From positions 1-64,000 of the forward strand of contig JAGHUX010000008.1 of NCBI GenBank assembly GCA_018064605.1: DNA of 64,000 bases, in the 5' to 3' direction. Below are positions 57,148 through 63,962 of this stretch, piece after piece. The DNA is from Candidatus Limimorpha caballi. GTDB taxonomy: Bacteria > Bacteroidota > Bacteroidia > Bacteroidales > F082. A program made the translations under genes and the position numbers. The notes beneath the pieces are model-generated. The model made no database searches and was not told the origin of the DNA. It saw only the letters and a list, made by a program, of their open reading frames with translations. Position 1 is the first letter of the stretch. Each line of letters opens with the position of its first letter.

Positions 57148-58524
57148 ATGAATCACAGCATCCTCATCGTTGACGACAACCGCGGCATCCTCTCCGCGCT
57201 GAAACTCACTCTGAGTCACGACTTCAAGACAATAACGACACTCTCATCGCCGAAGACGCTCGTCAGCGAACTGTCAGAAAACCAATACGACGTTGTGCTT
57301 CTTGACATGAATTTCACCGAAGACACGAACACCGGCAACGAAGGGCTTTTCTGGCTCTCGGAGATAAAAAGACGTTTCAATGTTGAAGTGGTTCTCTTCA
57401 CCGCCTACGCCGACATCGAGCTTGCCGTCACCGGGATAAAACGCGGCGCATACGACTTCATCGTGAAACCCTGGGACAACGGGAAACTCATCAAGACGCT
57501 TGTCGATGCGGCGAACCTGACAGCAAAGAAACGTGACAAAAACGCCGAGACGCTCAGCACCGCGTCTCAATGCCGGAATGAAGACGAATCCGGGAACGTG
57601 ATGTTTTGGGGCGACTCCGCCGCCATGCAGTCACTGCGCCGCCTCGTGGAGAAAGCCGCGCCGAGCGACGCAAGCGTCCTCATCACAGGCGAGAACGGGA
57701 CTGGCAAAGACCTGCTCGCCAAAGAGATACACGAGCTTTCATTAAGAAAATCAATGCCTTTCGTCGCCGTTGACATGGGTTCGATGCCAGAGACGCTGTT
57801 CGAGAGCGAGCTGTTCGGACACGTCAAAGGAGCCTTCACAGACGCCAAGAGCGACCGCGAAGGCAAGTTCGAAGCCGCCGACAAAGGCACGCTTTTCTTC
57901 GACGAAATCGGAAACATCCCGCTGCATCTACAAGCCAAACTGCTCCGCGTACTGCAAAACCGCACCATCACACGCATCGGCGACAACAAAGTAATCCCCG
58001 TTGACATACGCCTTGTCTGCGCCACAAACATGGACATCGAGAAAATGGTGAAAGACGGCACCTTCCGCGAAGACTTATACTACAGAATCAACACGATAAA
58101 GATGCAGCTGCCGACATTGCGGCAACGCAGCGAAGACATCATCCCGTTGGCGGAAATATTCATCCAACGTTTTGCAAATCAATATAATAAGACAATAGAC
58201 GGAATCAGCGATGAGGCGAAGGAGACGCTCATCGACTGCAAATGGGGTGGCAACATCCGCGAGTTGCAGAACTGCATCGAGAAAGCGGTGGTGCTTTGCG
58301 ACAGCACTACATTGCAGAAATCTGACTTCCAACTGAATTACCTCGAATTATGGAAGCCTGAAGAACCGGCAAAAGCTGAAGAGGACGCGACACTCGACGA
58401 GATAGAGAAAAACGCCATCCTCAACGTGATGAGAAAATACGACGGAAACCTCACTCTCGTTGCCAAGCACCTGAATATCAGCCGGCAGACCCTTTACAAC
58501 AAACTTAACAAATACGGTCTCTGA
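57148..58524 (+). CDS. Sigma-54-dependent response regulator (NtrC family)
   Basis: The 458 residues are a receiver domain (Asp53 in LLDMNF), an AAA+ sigma-54 activator domain and a C-terminal Fis-type helix-turn-helix (LTLVAKHLNISRQTLYNKLN). The activator domain has Walker A GENGTGKD (181-188), Walker B TLFFDEIG (248-255) and the sigma-54 loop in the form GAFTDA (228-233) instead of GAFTGA. It should drive sigma-54 promoters once phosphorylated by the kinase encoded next. The ABC operon 5 kb away carries a matching promoter and palindromes, so it is the likely target. Confidence 0.93.
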   Translation: MNHSILIVDDNRGILSALKLTLSHDFKTITTLSSPKTLVSELSENQYDVVLLDMNFTEDTNTGNEGLFWLSEIKRRFNVEVVLFTAYADIELAVTGIKRGAYDFIVKPWDNGKLIKTLVDAANLTAKKRDKNAETLSTASQCRNEDESGNVMFWGDSAAMQSLRRLVEKAAPSDASVLITGENGTGKDLLAKEIHELSLRKSMPFVAVDMGSMPETLFESELFGHVKGAFTDAKSDREGKFEAADKGTLFFDEIGNIPLHLQAKLLRVLQNRTITRIGDNKVIPVDIRLVCATNMDIEKMVKDGTFREDLYYRINTIKMQLPTLRQRSEDIIPLAEIFIQRFANQYNKTIDGISDEAKETLIDCKWGGNIRELQNCIEKAVVLCDSTTLQKSDFQLNYLELWKPEEPAKAEEDATLDEIEKNAILNVMRKYDGNLTLVAKHLNISRQTLYNKLNKYGL

Positions 58525-59816
58525 TGATCAAGAAAGTCGTCATATCGCTCATCGCGCTCGTTGTTTTCACATTGGGGACGTTCATGCTGTTTCTCAATGA
58601 GTTATATATCGCGGCATCTTTGGCGACACTTGCGACAACAGGGATTTTTGCCGCGCTGATTTTGCAATATCAAGAGAACACAAAGAAACTGATTTTCACA
58701 CTGAACGCCTTGGAGTCAGACGATTTCGCATTTCATTTCGATGACAGATTCTCCAAAAACAAAGACACCGACAAGATCTTCAACTACATGCTGAACCGCA
58801 TCAAGGACATGACGGAGCGTCACAAACTCGAACTTGAGGAACGCGAGCGTTATTACGAGACGATGCTCGAACGCGCCGACACCGGAATCATCGCCGTTGA
58901 CGAAAGGAACAATGTCATATACAGAAACGCCAAGGCATTGAGTCTCATCGGGTTGCCGGTCTTAAACAATTTAGTTCAAATCAAAAACATTGACACGAAC
59001 CTTTACGAGACGTTTCGCGACGCCGACGAAGGCAACGACCGGAAAGTCAGTTTCAGCAACGAGCGCGGCAATGTCACGCTCTCGATTGCCTGTTCAAGGG
59101 TGACGATCAAAGACAAGGATGTCAAGATATTGGCAGTCAACAACATAAGCGACGACATCGAGGCAAACGAAGTCGAGGCGTGGACACGGCTGATCCGCGT
59201 CCTGACACACGAAATAATGAACTCCATCTCCCCTGTCGCCTCGTTAAGCGAGACATTGTCGAAGTTTTACGGCAACGATAACGCCGAGCTGAAGGAAGGC
59301 CTCGACGTAATCAACAGAACCAGCCGCGGACTCATCGACTTCGTTGAATCATACCGCAGCATCACACGAATCAACAAGCCGATGAGGAAAGCCATTCCTT
59401 TCAACCAGCTGATTAACAATATTCTGACACTTGAAAAAGAGGAATTTTCGGCCAACGACATCAGCGTTGAGGTGACAGCCAACCGCGACGACATCATGCT
59501 TTACGTTGACGAAGGCCAGATTTCGCAGGTGATAATCAATGTCATCAAAAACGCCATTCAGGCTAATGCAAGCAAATTGAGAATCAGAGCCTTCATTGAC
59601 AAAGACGAAGTCGTCAGGATTGAGTTCGCCAACAACGGCACTCCGATTTCAAAGTCGATGTCGGAACAGATCTTCGTGCCTTTCTACACCACGAAGCCGT
59701 CGGGCAACGGCATCGGGCTGAGCATCTCGAAAAAGATCATGCAGAGCCACGACGGAGCCATACAGCTTTTGCGGTCGAACGAAAAAGAGACGGTTTTCCT
59801 GATTGTCTTCAGATGA
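58524..59816 (+). CDS. Sensor histidine kinase, partner of the NtrC-type regulator
   Basis: The 430-residue kinase has two N-terminal membrane helices (about 3-23 and 28-46) with almost no periplasmic loop, a PAS-like segment (about 105-195, TGIIAVDERNNVIYRN), a phospho-acceptor box in THEIMNSISP, and a full HATPase domain ending PSGNGIGLSISKKIM. The tiny periplasmic part suggests that it senses something in the membrane or cytoplasm. The start overlaps the regulator stop by 1 nt. Confidence 0.92.
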   Translation: MIKKVVISLIALVVFTLGTFMLFLNELYIAASLATLATTGIFAALILQYQENTKKLIFTLNALESDDFAFHFDDRFSKNKDTDKIFNYMLNRIKDMTERHKLELEERERYYETMLERADTGIIAVDERNNVIYRNAKALSLIGLPVLNNLVQIKNIDTNLYETFRDADEGNDRKVSFSNERGNVTLSIACSRVTIKDKDVKILAVNNISDDIEANEVEAWTRLIRVLTHEIMNSISPVASLSETLSKFYGNDNAELKEGLDVINRTSRGLIDFVESYRSITRINKPMRKAIPFNQLINNILTLEKEEFSANDISVEVTANRDDIMLYVDEGQISQVIINVIKNAIQANASKLRIRAFIDKDEVVRIEFANNGTPISKSMSEQIFVPFYTTKPSGNGIGLSISKKIMQSHDGAIQLLRSNEKETVFLIVFR

Positions 59817-59859: not shown

Positions 59860-62253
59860 TTAACTATCCTTCAACGCCTCCACCGGATTGGCATTCGCCG
59901 ACTTCCAACATCTTATCAACACTATTGAAATGGTGATAACCAGCACGATAGCAAGCGAAAGCACGAAGACCCACCAACACATCGGAGTGCGGTAGGCGAA
60001 CTTTTCGAGCCATCTGTCGATGATGAAATACGAGACCGGTGCGGCGACGACAAAGCACACCAGCACGATTTTCACGAACTGACTGCTGAAGATGTCGAGG
60101 ATTTCGCGAACCGTCGCACCGTTCACCCGACGAAGTGCGATTTCTTTCCTACGATATTGAGTCTCAAAGAGAACCAAGCCGAAAACGCCCATCAGCGAGA
60201 TGATGATTGACACCACCGAAAACGTGGTAATCAGCGCCGCGAACTTCCTGTCGTAATCGTATATCCGCGCAAGCTCCTCATCGAAGAAGTCGTAATACAG
60301 ATAGCCGCGCTTCACCTCCGGCACGTACCTCACGACCTCGTCTTTGATGAAATCGATGACGGCCTCAACATCCGCATCCGGTGTTATTCTGACATAAAGA
60401 TTATCGAGCGACTTCCACGAATCCGGCCCGAAGACATAAAACGCAAACGGTTCATTATCATATTGCAACGGCTTGAAATTAAAGTCTTTACAAAAACCGA
60501 CAATCTTTGTCTCTTTGTTATGACCGACAATCTTGTCCTCCAACGTGAGGCCGAATTTATTCTTCGCGACCTCATTGAAAATAAACGTGCCGAGGCTGTC
60601 GTTTTCGGCCACTTTCGAGAAATCTTCACCTTCAACGATGTCTATCCCCATGAATTTCAGGAAATTATACGAAACAGGATAACAGCTGAAATGGATTTCC
60701 TCGTTATTGAAATCACGTCCCCAGCCCATACGGCCGGCCGAGACCATCTGTCCGTTCGCGTATGCGACATCCACAATCTGCGGGTTTTTCTTCAGCTCCG
60801 ACGCGAACGCCTCCCTGTCGGAGAAATGATAGCCGATTTTCGACGGCACTACGCCGGTCAGCAACATCTCCTTGTTGAAACCCATATCGTGCCTTAACAT
60901 GTAATCATGCTGAAGTTTGATAAACAACGAACTGATTATCAATGCAATGGAAACGGCAAACTGCACACCGATGAGCATTGTGCGAAGTCTCTTCCCCGCT
61001 TTTGAGGAAACGAAACTGCCCTTCGCGGCGACCGCCAACGGGAACGACGTGATGTAATTAGCGGGATATATGTTAGCGACCACAGCGAAAACCAACCCGG
61101 CGGCGCAAATCGCAAGGAAAATATCGTAATTGCTTGAAAGTGAAATTGTTGGCGATACAAAACCCGCTATGAACGATGTCTCAACCGATGCGATGACCGG
61201 CAACGAAGCCACAAGCGCGATCACCACAAGACCGACGGCCTCGAAGAGAAAACTGAGTTTCATCTGCGTTTTCGTGCATCCGTAAACACGGTAGGTGTTC
61301 ACGCCACGCAACCGCTGCGGCACCATCGCCATGAAGAAATTCACGAAGTTAATGAACGCTATCACTATGATTAACAAAGCGATGGCAATAAGCATACGCG
61401 TTGTGGCAAGGTTGCCTTTATTCCAGCTTCCGCTTTTCTCATCAAAATAAGTCTTGGTGATCGGTATAACGCGCACCTTCTTGATCTTGTCGGCATAATA
61501 CTGACTTTCGTCTGGATCTGACAGGTCTTCTCCGAAATACCCGGCAAGGTTCGCACGGCAAATCTCAGCCACACGCTCAAGGTCGTCGGTGTTGACTTTT
61601 GCCATGCCATGAAACGACCACTCATTGCGGTCATCAATCCAATCATCACCAATGGAGACAAACGCATTCCACCAATTGAAATCACTGTTTTCAGGCATGT
61701 CGGGAATTATTGCGATAATACTATACACCATATCTTCAACCCATTTTGACGAAAAACAGACACTTCCGCCCACGTCACGGTTCAGTCGTTCGGCTGTCGA
61801 TTCGGTCAGCACGACGGTTTTCGGCTCATCAAACTTGGAAAGAGTGCCACGTACAGGCTCGATTCCCAATACTTCAAAGATTTCGATACTTAATCTTACA
61901 GTGTTCATCGGGCAGGTTTCAAAGCCATCGCCAACACGTATTATCACCCCCTGCGGGCTACAAGTGAACGAGGTCAAAACGCAATGAGATTCCACGCCAG
62001 GATTGTCGCCGAACGCCGACTCAATCATCGGGCGCGAGATAAAATTAGTGTAAGTGTCATCGGCATAAGGGCTTGGCCATTCGAGAGTGACGATATTGTC
62101 GGCATCTTTGAAACTCTTGTTGAAAGTCAGTTCATAGCGCACCTGCACCATGATGACGTAAGCCGTGGCGAAAGCGACCGCCATCCCGACCACGTTGAGA
62201 ACCGACGAGGCGGTGAAACGCTTGAGGAGACCGAGGAAGTTTTTGAAAAACAT
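59860..62253 (-). CDS. ABC transporter permease, MacB/FtsX type
   Basis: The 797-residue protein has an N-terminal helix (about 20-40) followed by a MacB periplasmic core, three helices (about 285-385) with an FtsX domain, a second periplasmic MacB-like domain (about 430-650) and a final FtsX domain with three helices near the C-terminus (FGLVLFETQYRRKEIALRRVNG). Such permeases extrude lipids, peptides or antibiotics, or do mechanotransmission across the envelope. The ATPase is encoded upstream, separated by a tandem repeat. Confidence 0.9.
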   Translation of the reverse strand: MFFKNFLGLLKRFTASSVLNVVGMAVAFATAYVIMVQVRYELTFNKSFKDADNIVTLEWPSPYADDTYTNFISRPMIESAFGDNPGVESHCVLTSFTCSPQGVIIRVGDGFETCPMNTVRLSIEIFEVLGIEPVRGTLSKFDEPKTVVLTESTAERLNRDVGGSVCFSSKWVEDMVYSIIAIIPDMPENSDFNWWNAFVSIGDDWIDDRNEWSFHGMAKVNTDDLERVAEICRANLAGYFGEDLSDPDESQYYADKIKKVRVIPITKTYFDEKSGSWNKGNLATTRMLIAIALLIIVIAFINFVNFFMAMVPQRLRGVNTYRVYGCTKTQMKLSFLFEAVGLVVIALVASLPVIASVETSFIAGFVSPTISLSSNYDIFLAICAAGLVFAVVANIYPANYITSFPLAVAAKGSFVSSKAGKRLRTMLIGVQFAVSIALIISSLFIKLQHDYMLRHDMGFNKEMLLTGVVPSKIGYHFSDREAFASELKKNPQIVDVAYANGQMVSAGRMGWGRDFNNEEIHFSCYPVSYNFLKFMGIDIVEGEDFSKVAENDSLGTFIFNEVAKNKFGLTLEDKIVGHNKETKIVGFCKDFNFKPLQYDNEPFAFYVFGPDSWKSLDNLYVRITPDADVEAVIDFIKDEVVRYVPEVKRGYLYYDFFDEELARIYDYDRKFAALITTFSVVSIIISLMGVFGLVLFETQYRRKEIALRRVNGATVREILDIFSSQFVKIVLVCFVVAAPVSYFIIDRWLEKFAYRTPMCWWVFVLSLAIVLVITISIVLIRCWKSANANPVEALKDS

Positions 62254-62271
62254 AATTCAGAGTTTTTTTTA

Positions 62272-62438
62272 ACACGAGTTGCACAAGTTTTTTATTTTTA
62301 ACACGAGTTACACAAGTTTATGACACGAGTTACGCAAGTTTTTTATTTTTAACACGAGTTGCACAAGTTTATGACACGAGTTGCACAAGTTTTTTCTGCT
62401 CGTGAAACTTGTGTTATCCACTTGTGAAACTTGTGTTT
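62272..62438. repeat. Tandem repeat between ABC ATPase and permease genes
   Basis: Five copies of ACACGAGTT(G/A)C(A/G)CAAGTTT start at 62272, 62301, 62323, 62352 and 62374, so spacings alternate 29 and 22 nt, a 51-nt higher-order unit. Two inverted copies (GTGAAACTTGTGTT) follow at about 62402-62438. The tract ends 19 nt from the permease start codon. Confidence 0.88.
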
Positions 62439-62441
62439 AAA

Positions 62442-63122
62442 TTACAGCTCATCATTCACATTATCAACTATTTTGCCATCGAACAGGTTGATGATTCTGT
62501 CGGCGTATGATGCGTCTTTGCGCGAGTGTGTCACCATGACGACCGTGGTGCCGTCGTTATGAAGTTCGGACAGCAGCTTCATCACTTCCTGGCCGTTTCT
62601 TGAGTCGAGGTTGCCTGTCGGCTCGTCGGCGAGGATTAGTTTCGGGTTGGCGACGACGGCGCGGGCGATGGCCACACGTTGCTGCTGGCCGCCGGAGAGC
62701 TGCTGCGGGAAATGGTCGCAACGATGCAGTATGCCCATGCGGCGCATTATCGCCTCGACCTTCTCGCGGCGTTCCGCCTTGTTGATTCTCAAATAGATAA
62801 GCGGAAGCTCGATGTTTTCATACACGCTCAGCTCATCAATGAGGTTGAAACTCTGAAACACGAATCCGATGTTTCCCTTGCGGAAAAGCGTGCGGTCTTT
62901 CTCCTTCAGTTTGCCCACTTCCCTGCCGAGAAGCTCGTACTCGCCTCCCGTCGGGTTGTCGAGCAGGCCCAAGATGTTCAGCAGCGTTGACTTTCCGCAT
63001 CCGGAAGGTCCCATGATGGCGACAAATTCGCCGTCTTTGATTTCAAACGACACGCCGGCGAGAGCCGTTGTGATGATGTCTTCGGTTCTGAATTCCTTTA
63101 CGAGGTTGTTTACTTTAATCAT
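62442..63122 (-). CDS. ABC transporter ATP-binding protein (MacB/LolD type)
   Basis: The 226-residue ATPase has Walker [10 protein letters not shown], signature LSGGQQQR and Walker [12 protein letters not shown], and fits the LolD/MacB/FtsE group. It is encoded first, then the permease, in one minus-strand operon. The start is preceded by a sigma-54-type promoter (63159-63174) and two upstream palindromes, so expression should need the NtrC-type regulator. Confidence 0.94.
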
Positions 63123-63158: not shown

Positions 63159-63174
63159 ATCATATTTCGTGCCA
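63159..63174 (-). promoter_or_regulatory. Sigma-54 (-24/-12) promoter of the ABC operon
   Basis: Minus strand TGGCACG-AAAT-ATGAT compared with the consensus TGGCACG-N4-TTGCW. The -24 half is perfect; the -12 half keeps the G but has A for C. Predicted start near 63148, 26 nt before the ATG. No TAnnTTTG box is present in this intergenic region for this gene. Confidence 0.65.
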
Positions 63175-63225
63175 AACTTTTAAATCATTAAAAATCAATA
63201 TTTTACAAAACAAGCAAAATAAAAA

Positions 63226-63266
63226 CCGTCCAAAATTTGGACAGTGGCTGTCTAATTTTTGGACAG
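63226..63266 (-). promoter_or_regulatory. Paired palindromes, likely NtrC-type enhancer sites
   Basis: Two 19-bp dyads, CCGTCCAAAATTTGGACAG (63226-63244) and CTGTCTAATTTTTGGACAG (63248-63266), match at 16 of 19 positions and start 22 nt apart. Their centres lie at about -87 and -109 from the predicted sigma-54 start. Confidence 0.7.
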
Positions 63267-63466: not shown

Positions 63467-63685
63467 TTATAATTTACAAACACATTTTCCACCCGAGTTT
63501 TTTACAAATCTAACACATTTTCCACCCGAGTTTCGGTTGCAAAAGTACAAAAAATCAAAATCCGCAATTGTCAATAAAGAAACCGCACAATTTTCAAGTC
63601 CGACTTGCTTGATTTTTTCCTTAATGCCATATTTATTGCGAAACAAGAAACCACAAATATTTGTGTCGAGCAGATACTTTGCCAT
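63467..63685 (-). pseudogene. Truncated VapC-type PIN toxin
   Basis: The frame opens like a VapC toxin, MAKYLLDTNICGFLFRNKYG then IKEKIKQVGLENCAVSLLTI, with the first catalytic aspartate in LLDTN. After about 45 residues the PIN fold is lost and the frame runs through two copies of a 33-nt repeat, giving NSGGKCV twice. Full VapC proteins have about 130 residues with three more acidic residues; those are missing, so the toxin should be inactive. Confidence 0.7.
63473..63533. repeat. Two copies of a 33-nt unit inside the truncated toxin gene
   Basis: The 20-nt core CACATTTTCCACCCGAGTTT occurs at 63481-63500 and 63514-63533. A third partial element (TTTACAAA) precedes each copy. The period of 33 keeps the reading frame. 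Confidence 0.8.
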
Positions 63686-63687
63686 AA

Positions 63688-63945
63688 TCAGATTTCAACT
63701 ATTTCACGTTTTTTATTTCTCCCCGACTCGCAAACTTCAACAAATTCATCGGCTGTCAGCCCATCATCAGGCCATGAGGATGAGATTTTATCAAGAACAT
63801 CATCACAATCTTCCGCCGTGATTTTTGGCTCTTTTCTTAACGATATATAAATCAATTCAATAAGGTTAAGTTTAACCTCATTACTTGAATTTTTTATTAA
63901 ATTCCAGTATTTTTTTGCGGCTGGAATTGGCACGATGTCATTCAT
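63688..63945 (-). CDS. Antitoxin of the degenerate VapBC-like pair
   Basis: The 85-residue acidic protein lies 2 nt before the toxin start, the usual antitoxin-first order. It begins MNDIVPIPAAKKYWNLIKNS and ends with a basic stretch (ESGRNKKREIVEI), without a clear ribbon-helix-helix or AbrB motif visible to me. It resembles small helical antitoxin-like proteins found with PIN toxins in Bacteroidota. A TACTTTTG -7 box (minus, 63963-63970) lies just upstream. It is intact although its toxin is broken. Confidence 0.65.
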   Translation of the reverse strand: MNDIVPIPAAKKYWNLIKNSSNEVKLNLIELIYISLRKEPKITAEDCDDVLDKISSSWPDDGLTADEFVEVCESGRNKKREIVEI

Positions 63946-63962
63946 ATCAAAATTTTTATTTG

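Follow-up and report, generated by a model that had tools for sequence, protein, structure and literature searches.

The window, that is, the whole stretch of DNA analysed here, is the first 64 kb of the 247-kb contig C37 in the 2.76-Mb genome of Candidatus Limimorpha caballi, and toward its end lies an ATP-binding cassette (ABC) transporter operon, hereafter unit 1, preceded by a putative sigma-54 promoter and two 19-bp dyads. Beside this operon, the genes of a response regulator and a histidine kinase adjoin each other on the opposite strand. Pump genes lying next to this two-gene sensor system have, both here and in many relatives, promoters with a pair of sites at a precise spacing, so that joint activation of these genes through the alternative sigma factor RpoN is predicted as very likely. 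The features are collected in Table 1, including three further efflux units from the next stretch of C37.

Table 1. Genes and control elements of the efflux cluster on contig C37
Feature	Position	Strand	Basis
NtrC-family response regulator, proposed activator binding the paired dyads	57148..58524	plus	Pfam Response_reg, Sigma54_activat, HTH_8
Histidine kinase, proposed partner of the regulator	58524..59816	plus	PAS, HisKA-like, HATPase_c (Pfam; HisKA below curated cut-off)
FtsX/MacB_PCD duplicated permease, 797 aa, second gene of unit 1	59860..62253	minus	Pfam FtsX + MacB_PCD
ABC transporter ATPase, 226 aa, first gene of unit 1	62442..63122	minus	Pfam ABC_tran
Sigma-54-type -24/-12 element TGGCACGAAATATGAT of unit 1	63159..63174	minus (63174 down to 63159)	read in sequence; like elements at three further units
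Proximal 19-bp dyad CCGTCCAAAATTTGGACAG, proposed enhancer half	63226..63244	.	centre 62 bp upstream of -24 GG; pair conserved in relatives
Distal 19-bp dyad CTGTCTAATTTTTGGACAG, proposed enhancer half	63248..63266	.	centre 84 bp upstream of -24 GG; pair conserved in relatives
Unit 1: ATPase + permease	62442-63122 + 59860-62253	minus	Pfam domains
Second efflux unit: permease	64052-66394	minus	Pfam domains
Third efflux unit: permease	67754-70123	minus	Pfam domains
Fourth efflux unit: TolC-type protein + HlyD + permease	74963-76309 + 73549-74811 + 71096-73552	minus	Pfam domains

Promoter element and paired dyads upstream of unit 1

Read on the minus strand, the sequence upstream of the ATPase gene is TTTGGCACGAAATATGAT, followed further up by CTGTCCAAATTTTGGACGG and CTGTCCAAAAATTAGACAG. 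The usual sigma-54 consensus has GG at -24 and GC at -12 with 10 bp between them, and TGGCACGAAATATGAT is the sole exact match to TGGCAYGNNNNWTGNW in the whole window. Matches with one mismatch number 9, compared to 8.2 expected by chance, so that the -24/-12 element alone means little. The two dyads lie 22 bp apart, and the true register of the palindrome is odd-centred, CTGTCCAAA-N-TTTGGACAG. A first-pass annotation, made from the sequence, had given the coordinates and spacing of these elements correctly, as rereading confirmed. It had also counted 16 of 19 identical positions between the dyads, which holds by eye when one dyad is read on the other strand and falls to 15 of 19 in the same direction. 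Its dyad centres at about -87 and -109 agree with the distances from the -24 GG, provided that transcription starts where sigma-54 would place it. Just upstream of the pair, two 19-nt arms (63285-63303/63319-63337) form a perfect inverted repeat around a 15-nt loop, terminator-like in appearance.

The genome encodes RpoN, on whose presence the proposed sigma-54 promoter depends: an rpoN gene on contig C34 matches PF04552 with an E-value of 1.5e-52. The sigma-54 DNA-binding domain family has one more match, a partial one, at G000:C5:77371-77544 (L002) within a 353-aa frame.

Four efflux units share the control region

When up to three mismatches are allowed, the odd-centred 19-mer occurs seven times in the genome, all within 13.2 kb of C37 (63226-76443), while the reversed pattern occurs twice. 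Even-centred palindrome patterns, which are in the wrong register, gave no match in the window and 74 in the genome against 120 for the control, hence no enrichment. Together with a weaker site at 76403 (four mismatches), the seven dyads form four pairs, each 22 bp apart, and all four precede separate efflux units. The proximal centres lie 62, 62, 62, and 64 bp upstream of the GG and the distal ones 84, 84, 84, and 86 bp, with a TTTGGCAY box 62-64 bp downstream of each pair. The -24/-12 elements of the four units read, in order, TGGCACGAAATATGAT, TGGCACAATATTTGGT, TGGCATGATGTTTGGT, and TGGCACGATGATTGAT, the -24 box being TGGCAC or TGGCAT. A genome-wide scan for the palindrome near -24/-12 motifs had been proposed by the first-pass annotation, and all seven dyads counted at up to three mismatches lie in this cluster. 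The same annotation had placed one ABC operon under this control; unit 1 does belong to the circuit, which is however larger and comprises all four units. The four permeases share 24-37% identity with one another, so that the common control regions are more than a mere trace of recent duplication, and a recent duplication was set aside as their source.

By their Pfam domains, the four units include all four kinds of part of a MacAB-TolC-like set, namely an ATPase, MacB-type permeases, an HlyD adaptor, and a TolC-type protein. Only one ABC ATPase gene, that of unit 1, was found at 62.4-76.4 kb of C37, the other copies of the genome being located elsewhere. The best NCBIfam model for this ATPase is DarD, although the score lies below the DarD cut-off. 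Against solved structures, the sole relative found for the unit 1 permease at an E-value threshold of 0.01 is MacB (5nik, E 6e-4).

Pair spacing and promoter phasing in relatives

Loci for comparison were picked by their kinase, so that the choice carries no information on the DNA sites. A kinase search over 247 genomes of the order gave a match in 246, many as distant kinases only, from which we took the 29 best-ranked stretches outside the own genome and four lower-ranked, hand-picked ones (L115-L118). Two overlapping stretches of genome G025 were added, chosen for their dyads from the dyad search instead of by kinase rank, and both contain the pair G025:C67:61610, which is thus counted twice among the strict pairs of the full set. 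A scan of named genomes of all phyla with an alignment of 20 kinases contributed the best 80 of 578 confirmed stretches, all from Bacteroidota by name, among them Bacteroides, Phocaeicola, Parabacteroides, Alistipes, Dysgonomonas, Maribacter, Zobellia, Aquimarina, Arenibacter, and Echinicola. This makes 115 stretches, or 113 when both G025 stretches are left out; 114 of the 115 have the kinase, the 114 kinases fall into 108 clusters, and L087 and L128 are apparently the same contig. In the nearest relative of the order-wide search (L084), only 154 bp of contig follow the outermost permease, which limits the pair test there.

With a strict site defined as TGT(C/A)-N9-(G/T)ACA, the 115 stretches contain 57 pairs no more than 100 bp apart, 48 of them at 21-23 bp, compared to a single pair in the reversed sequence. 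Leaving out G025 retains 54 pairs (19 at 21 bp, 20 at 22, 6 at 23, and 9 with some other spacing), and leaving out L128 and the hand-picked four as well retains 49, of which 40 are at 21-23 bp. On the efflux side of a strict pair, the best -24/-12 match within 200 bp lies either 62-67 bp (29 regions) or 72-74 bp (12 regions) away, in all 41 regions, two of which come from G025. On the regulator side, the best match is at 65 bp in one of 27 cases, weak in 16, and elsewhere in 10. The two promoter distances differ by one helical turn, and in the strict-pair test the longer one is found only in Echinicola and in genera that we take, from their names, to be flavobacterial; in a relaxed test, L100, of the same order as the window, has it at 74 bp.

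This relaxed test asks for a dyad pair at 21-23 bp and a sigma-54 promoter at 60-76 bp. In the 113 stretches it was positive for 61 of 141 first efflux genes, in 59 of 83 testable loci, and for none of 566 other open reading frames (ORFs) of at least 200 aa, none of 167 internal efflux genes, none of 111 kinases, and 4 of 106 regulators. In the comparison with related genomes, which the first-pass annotation had called for, the pairs thus recur in front of efflux genes at many loci with a related kinase. Including G025, the counts become 64/145 for first efflux genes, 4/107 for regulators, 0/112 for kinases, 0/169 for internal efflux genes, and 0/575 for other ORFs, and decoy pair spacings yield 0, 2, 5, and 1 of the 145 first efflux genes. 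Within the allowed range, no promoter fell at 60-61, 68-71, or 75-76 bp. When pair spacing (12-60 bp) and promoter distance (40-99 bp) were both left free, 54 matches had a spacing of 21-23 bp and 14 other spacings occurred once each. Two of these other spacings, 31 and 32 bp, belong to both efflux promoters of L193, where the proximal dyad is still 65-66 bp from the -24 box, which looks like a three-turn version of the pair.

Four regulator genes carry a pair and a promoter of their own. Those of L151 and L165 have the promoter at 65 bp, and no efflux gene was seen in their stretches, which suggests that these regulators are self-controlled; in L101 (60 bp) and L183 (72 bp), the region upstream of the regulator is common to a TolC gene. 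With G025 included, 31 of 92 efflux loci have no standard pair, and 7 of the 92 have no first gene with enough upstream DNA. Among the misses, GTGTAAAG-type variant sites lie upstream of high-scoring promoters in L111, L186, L192, and L196. A scan of 197 genomes of the class for the strict 22-bp pair, a pattern that misses spacings of 21 and 23 bp and even the window's own pair, found three places in two genomes, two of them in the genome of the window and one in G277. All three exact pairs stand before ABC efflux genes with a phased promoter, and that of G277 precedes an ATPase 70% identical to the one in the window, on another contig of that genome.

The linked regulator and kinase

The regulator consists of a receiver, a sigma-54-type AAA+ domain with a GAFTDA loop, and a Fis-type helix-turn-helix (HTH) domain. 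It gives one of the three strong matches to PF00158, the sigma-54 activator family, in the genome, where three more are weak. Its nearest solved relatives are of the NtrC family, e.g., 4l4u and ZraR (1ojl), and for every one of the top 25 of 78 NCBIfam models its score is below the cut-off. Asp53 is invariant across 23 aligned regulators.

In the window, the kinase gene directly adjoins that of the regulator; of the 114 kinase loci elsewhere, 110 have a regulator gene next to it, on the same strand and no more than 300 bp away, in keeping with the pairing of the two as partners in the first-pass annotation. Efflux-type ORFs, defined by at least 40 bits against one of the efflux proteins of the window's cluster, are present in the stretch at 91 of the 114 loci (a permease in 81, only an ATPase in 2), where matches to ATPase, HlyD, and TolC reach broad families and a few may be unrelated. 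Linkage between kinase and efflux genes is common, not universal.

Hydropathy of the kinase reveals two segments, 5-21 and 31-47, about 9 residues apart. By the same measure, 68 of 115 kinases have two hydrophobic segments, 36 have one, 7 none, and 4 three, where start codons were set mechanically and some segments may be cut off. The gap between the first two segments is 2-17 residues in 71 of the 72 kinases with at least two; the exception, 86 residues, probably reflects a missed segment. Two such close segments leave little room for an outside sensor. The term “membrane-sensing” applied to this circuit in the first-pass annotation is at most compatible with the two close transmembrane segments of the kinase.

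The recognition helix of the regulator appears to vary together with the DNA site. Five loci with a SRPTLY helix go with TGTA half-sites, having 0, 0, 0, 0, and 1 C among the four half-sites, and in the 36 loci with RQTLY between 0 and 4 of the four half-sites have C, on average 2.6; one locus, matching neither helix pattern, was left out of the test. Such covariation fits direct readout of the dyads by the linked regulator, short of proof. L115 and L116 (same genus) contain a module of this kind in which the kinase is shorter (286 and 285 aa), the dyads are of the TGTAAA type, and the regulator has SRPTLY, so that two versions of the module exist within one genus.

Weighing the interpretation

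Taken together, we consider it highly probable that the locus represents a conserved module of Bacteroidota, in which a cognate NtrC-family regulator acting through sigma-54 drives a MacAB-TolC-like efflux regulon with multiple permeases. The first-pass proposal, in which the linked regulator and kinase control a sigma-54 promoter through paired NtrC-family sites, gains support from rpoN, from the domains of the regulator, from the recurring phased pairs, and from the helix covariation.

Several observations weigh against it. The -12 box lacks the usual GC, reading GA at unit 1 and GG or GA at the other three units; several relatives carry GC there. A promoter score of at least 10.5 is reached by 32% of random 200-bp pieces, so that position, not score, carries the promoter evidence. 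All 23 aligned regulators have GAFTDA, GSFTDA, or GAYTDA in place of GAFTGA. In the available passages of a study on D. vulgaris, a GAFTDA activator is listed with its regulon, and GAFTDA and GAYTDA are counted among the variants that keep activity, GSFTDA not being listed there (PMC4641369). The standard pair is missing from 24 of the 83 testable loci with efflux genes outside G025, and in the other misses examined, beyond those with variant sites, nothing clear stands in its place. Among 35 relatives of the own genus, many of them incomplete, strict dyad pairs recur in G025 only, and elsewhere dyad counts are about those of the control. Taken alone, the 197-genome scan shows no enrichment, as its reversed control produced 5 places and the real pattern 3. 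Moreover, 23 of the 114 kinase loci have no efflux ORF; many of these are on short contigs, and 7 exceed 20 kb, e.g., L126 of Phocaeicola vulgatus. As for the helix covariation, its p-value (Mann-Whitney, p = 0.0007) ignores relatedness, and L086, an RQTLY locus, has no C in its half-sites.

The atypical -12 box and the abundance of one-mismatch look-alikes in the window would suit a different reading, in which the dyads serve as operators, either of a repressor or at a promoter of the housekeeping sigma factor, and the -24/-12 match is an A+T-rich look-alike that arose by chance. We give little credence to this, since the look-alike sits at a fixed, helically phased distance in all 41 efflux-side regions with a strict pair and is present at all four units, and repressor operators are not expected to hold 62-67 or 72-74 bp from a TGGCAY box. 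It could also be argued that the dyads do act as sigma-54 enhancers, yet for a different activator encoded in the genome, the linked regulator and kinase doing something else, given that two further strong sigma-54 activators are encoded on C4 and C5 and that binding by the linked regulator is a prediction. However, the recognition helices of those two, SERTLY and DRKTLY, differ from SRQTLY in the regulator of the window, the regulator adjoins the kinase in nearly all loci, most of them with efflux-type genes in the stretch, and the dyads covary with the helix of the linked regulator; this alternative likewise seems quite improbable. Finally, both dyads together make a 30-nt imperfect inverted repeat (63215-63244/63248-63277, 87% complementary) that might suggest an RNA hairpin, either terminator or attenuator, a scarcely credible reading, as judged from position and sequence conservation, given that the dyads lie upstream of the predicted start and would thus be outside the transcript, and that what is kept across genomes is the TGT(C/A)-N9-(G/T)ACA core and the 21-23 bp spacing, not stem strength.

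A model of the circuit

The sites, the way they are spaced and conserved, the linkage of the genes, and an rpoN gene were observed directly; from these we infer that the regulator binds and is phosphorylated, that its effect is activation and not repression, where the transcript starts, and that the units carry out efflux. In this model of sigma-54-dependent activation, the regulator encoded at 57.1-58.5 kb would bind the dyads as a pair of upstream activator sites, and the RpoN promoter that it activates would be TGGCACG...TGAT. The neighboring kinase would phosphorylate the regulator, probably at Asp53, whose dimers may then occupy the two sites, two helical turns apart, and form an AAA+ ring, and by looping this assembly would open the RpoN-polymerase complex 62 bp downstream. 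All four units with a like control region, i.e., ATPase plus permease, permease, permease, and TolC plus HlyD plus permease, would respond together, their products forming a MacAB-TolC-like efflux machine in which a single ATPase may serve several permeases.

Other features of the cluster

In unit 1, a tandem repeat of ACACGAGTTGCACAAG-type sequence with a 51-bp unit (62266-62395; 2.4 copies, 93% matches) lies between the genes of the ATPase and the permease. At 63479-63533, AACACATTTTCCACCCGAGTTT occurs in two identical 22-nt copies 33 bp apart. On the minus strand at 63600-63950, a fragment resembles, by eye, a VapC-type PIN domain, and an antitoxin-like gene precedes it; the two may be the remains of a toxin-antitoxin pair. 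Between the efflux units lie a DUF3990 gene (L023:4788-5306) and an aspartyl-protease-like ORF (L023:8281-8730), apparently unrelated cargo.

Relation to known systems and significance

Activators of the NtrBC, ZraSR, and AtoSC type share with the present system the receiver, AAA+, and Fis-type HTH architecture, the paired upstream dyads, and the -24/-12 promoter. The differences lie in the GAFTDA-type loop, in the FtsX/MacB-type efflux targets, and in the kinase, which by hydropathy has no extracytoplasmic sensor domain. MacAB-TolC likewise combines an ABC ATPase, an FtsX/MacB_PCD permease, an HlyD adaptor, and a TolC-like outer-membrane protein, with the weak match to MacB 5nik as a further likeness. 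Here, in contrast, ATPase and permease are encoded by separate genes, one ATPase gene faces four permease genes, and the permeases are about 800 aa long with two FtsX stretches each.

A third comparison is with the BceRS-BceAB modules of Gram-positive bacteria, in which BceB is FtsX-like. As described in the available passages on these modules, a two-component system also lies beside an ABC transporter, and its kinase, which has two transmembrane helices and no extracytoplasmic domain, is driven by that transporter (PMC8534201). What sets the present module apart is the NtrC-family regulator with sigma-54, the adaptor and TolC, the many permeases, and the PAS domain of the kinase. By analogy, it might be a Bacteroidota counterpart of Bce modules assembled from unrelated regulatory parts, in which a transporter-controlled kinase, NtrC-family/sigma-54 output to several promoters, one ATPase with alternative permeases, and one HlyD-TolC channel would work together; we put this forward as a speculation that is rather unlikely to hold.

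In a survey of 2025, COG0577 permeases of Bacteroidia were found to be enriched for predicted sigma-54 promoters, which was termed the first evidence for the FtsX-like family (PMC12316311). In the available passages of that survey, neither an enhancer pair with its spacing nor a cognate regulator and kinase nor a multi-unit regulon is mentioned (PMC12316311). A search of titles and abstract openings in the open-licence PMC literature turned up no description of the regulator, of its dyad pairs, or of a regulon made up of several units. Given that the sigma-54/FtsX-permease link has already been predicted in print (PMC12316311, as far as its passages go), it is the enhancer code and the circuit that appear new, within the literature searched.

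The analysis thus provides a concrete and checkable cis-regulatory code for efflux genes of Bacteroidota, where we came across few publications on sigma-54 control. The code consists of a known dyad consensus, a pair spacing that is fixed, and a choice of two promoter distances that differ by one helical turn. The likely regulator, its kinase, and four target units can now be named. A further question is how the kinase, lacking a sensor on the outside, would detect its signal. Furthermore, the relatives offer a natural dataset on how enhancer phasing may evolve in whole helical turns.
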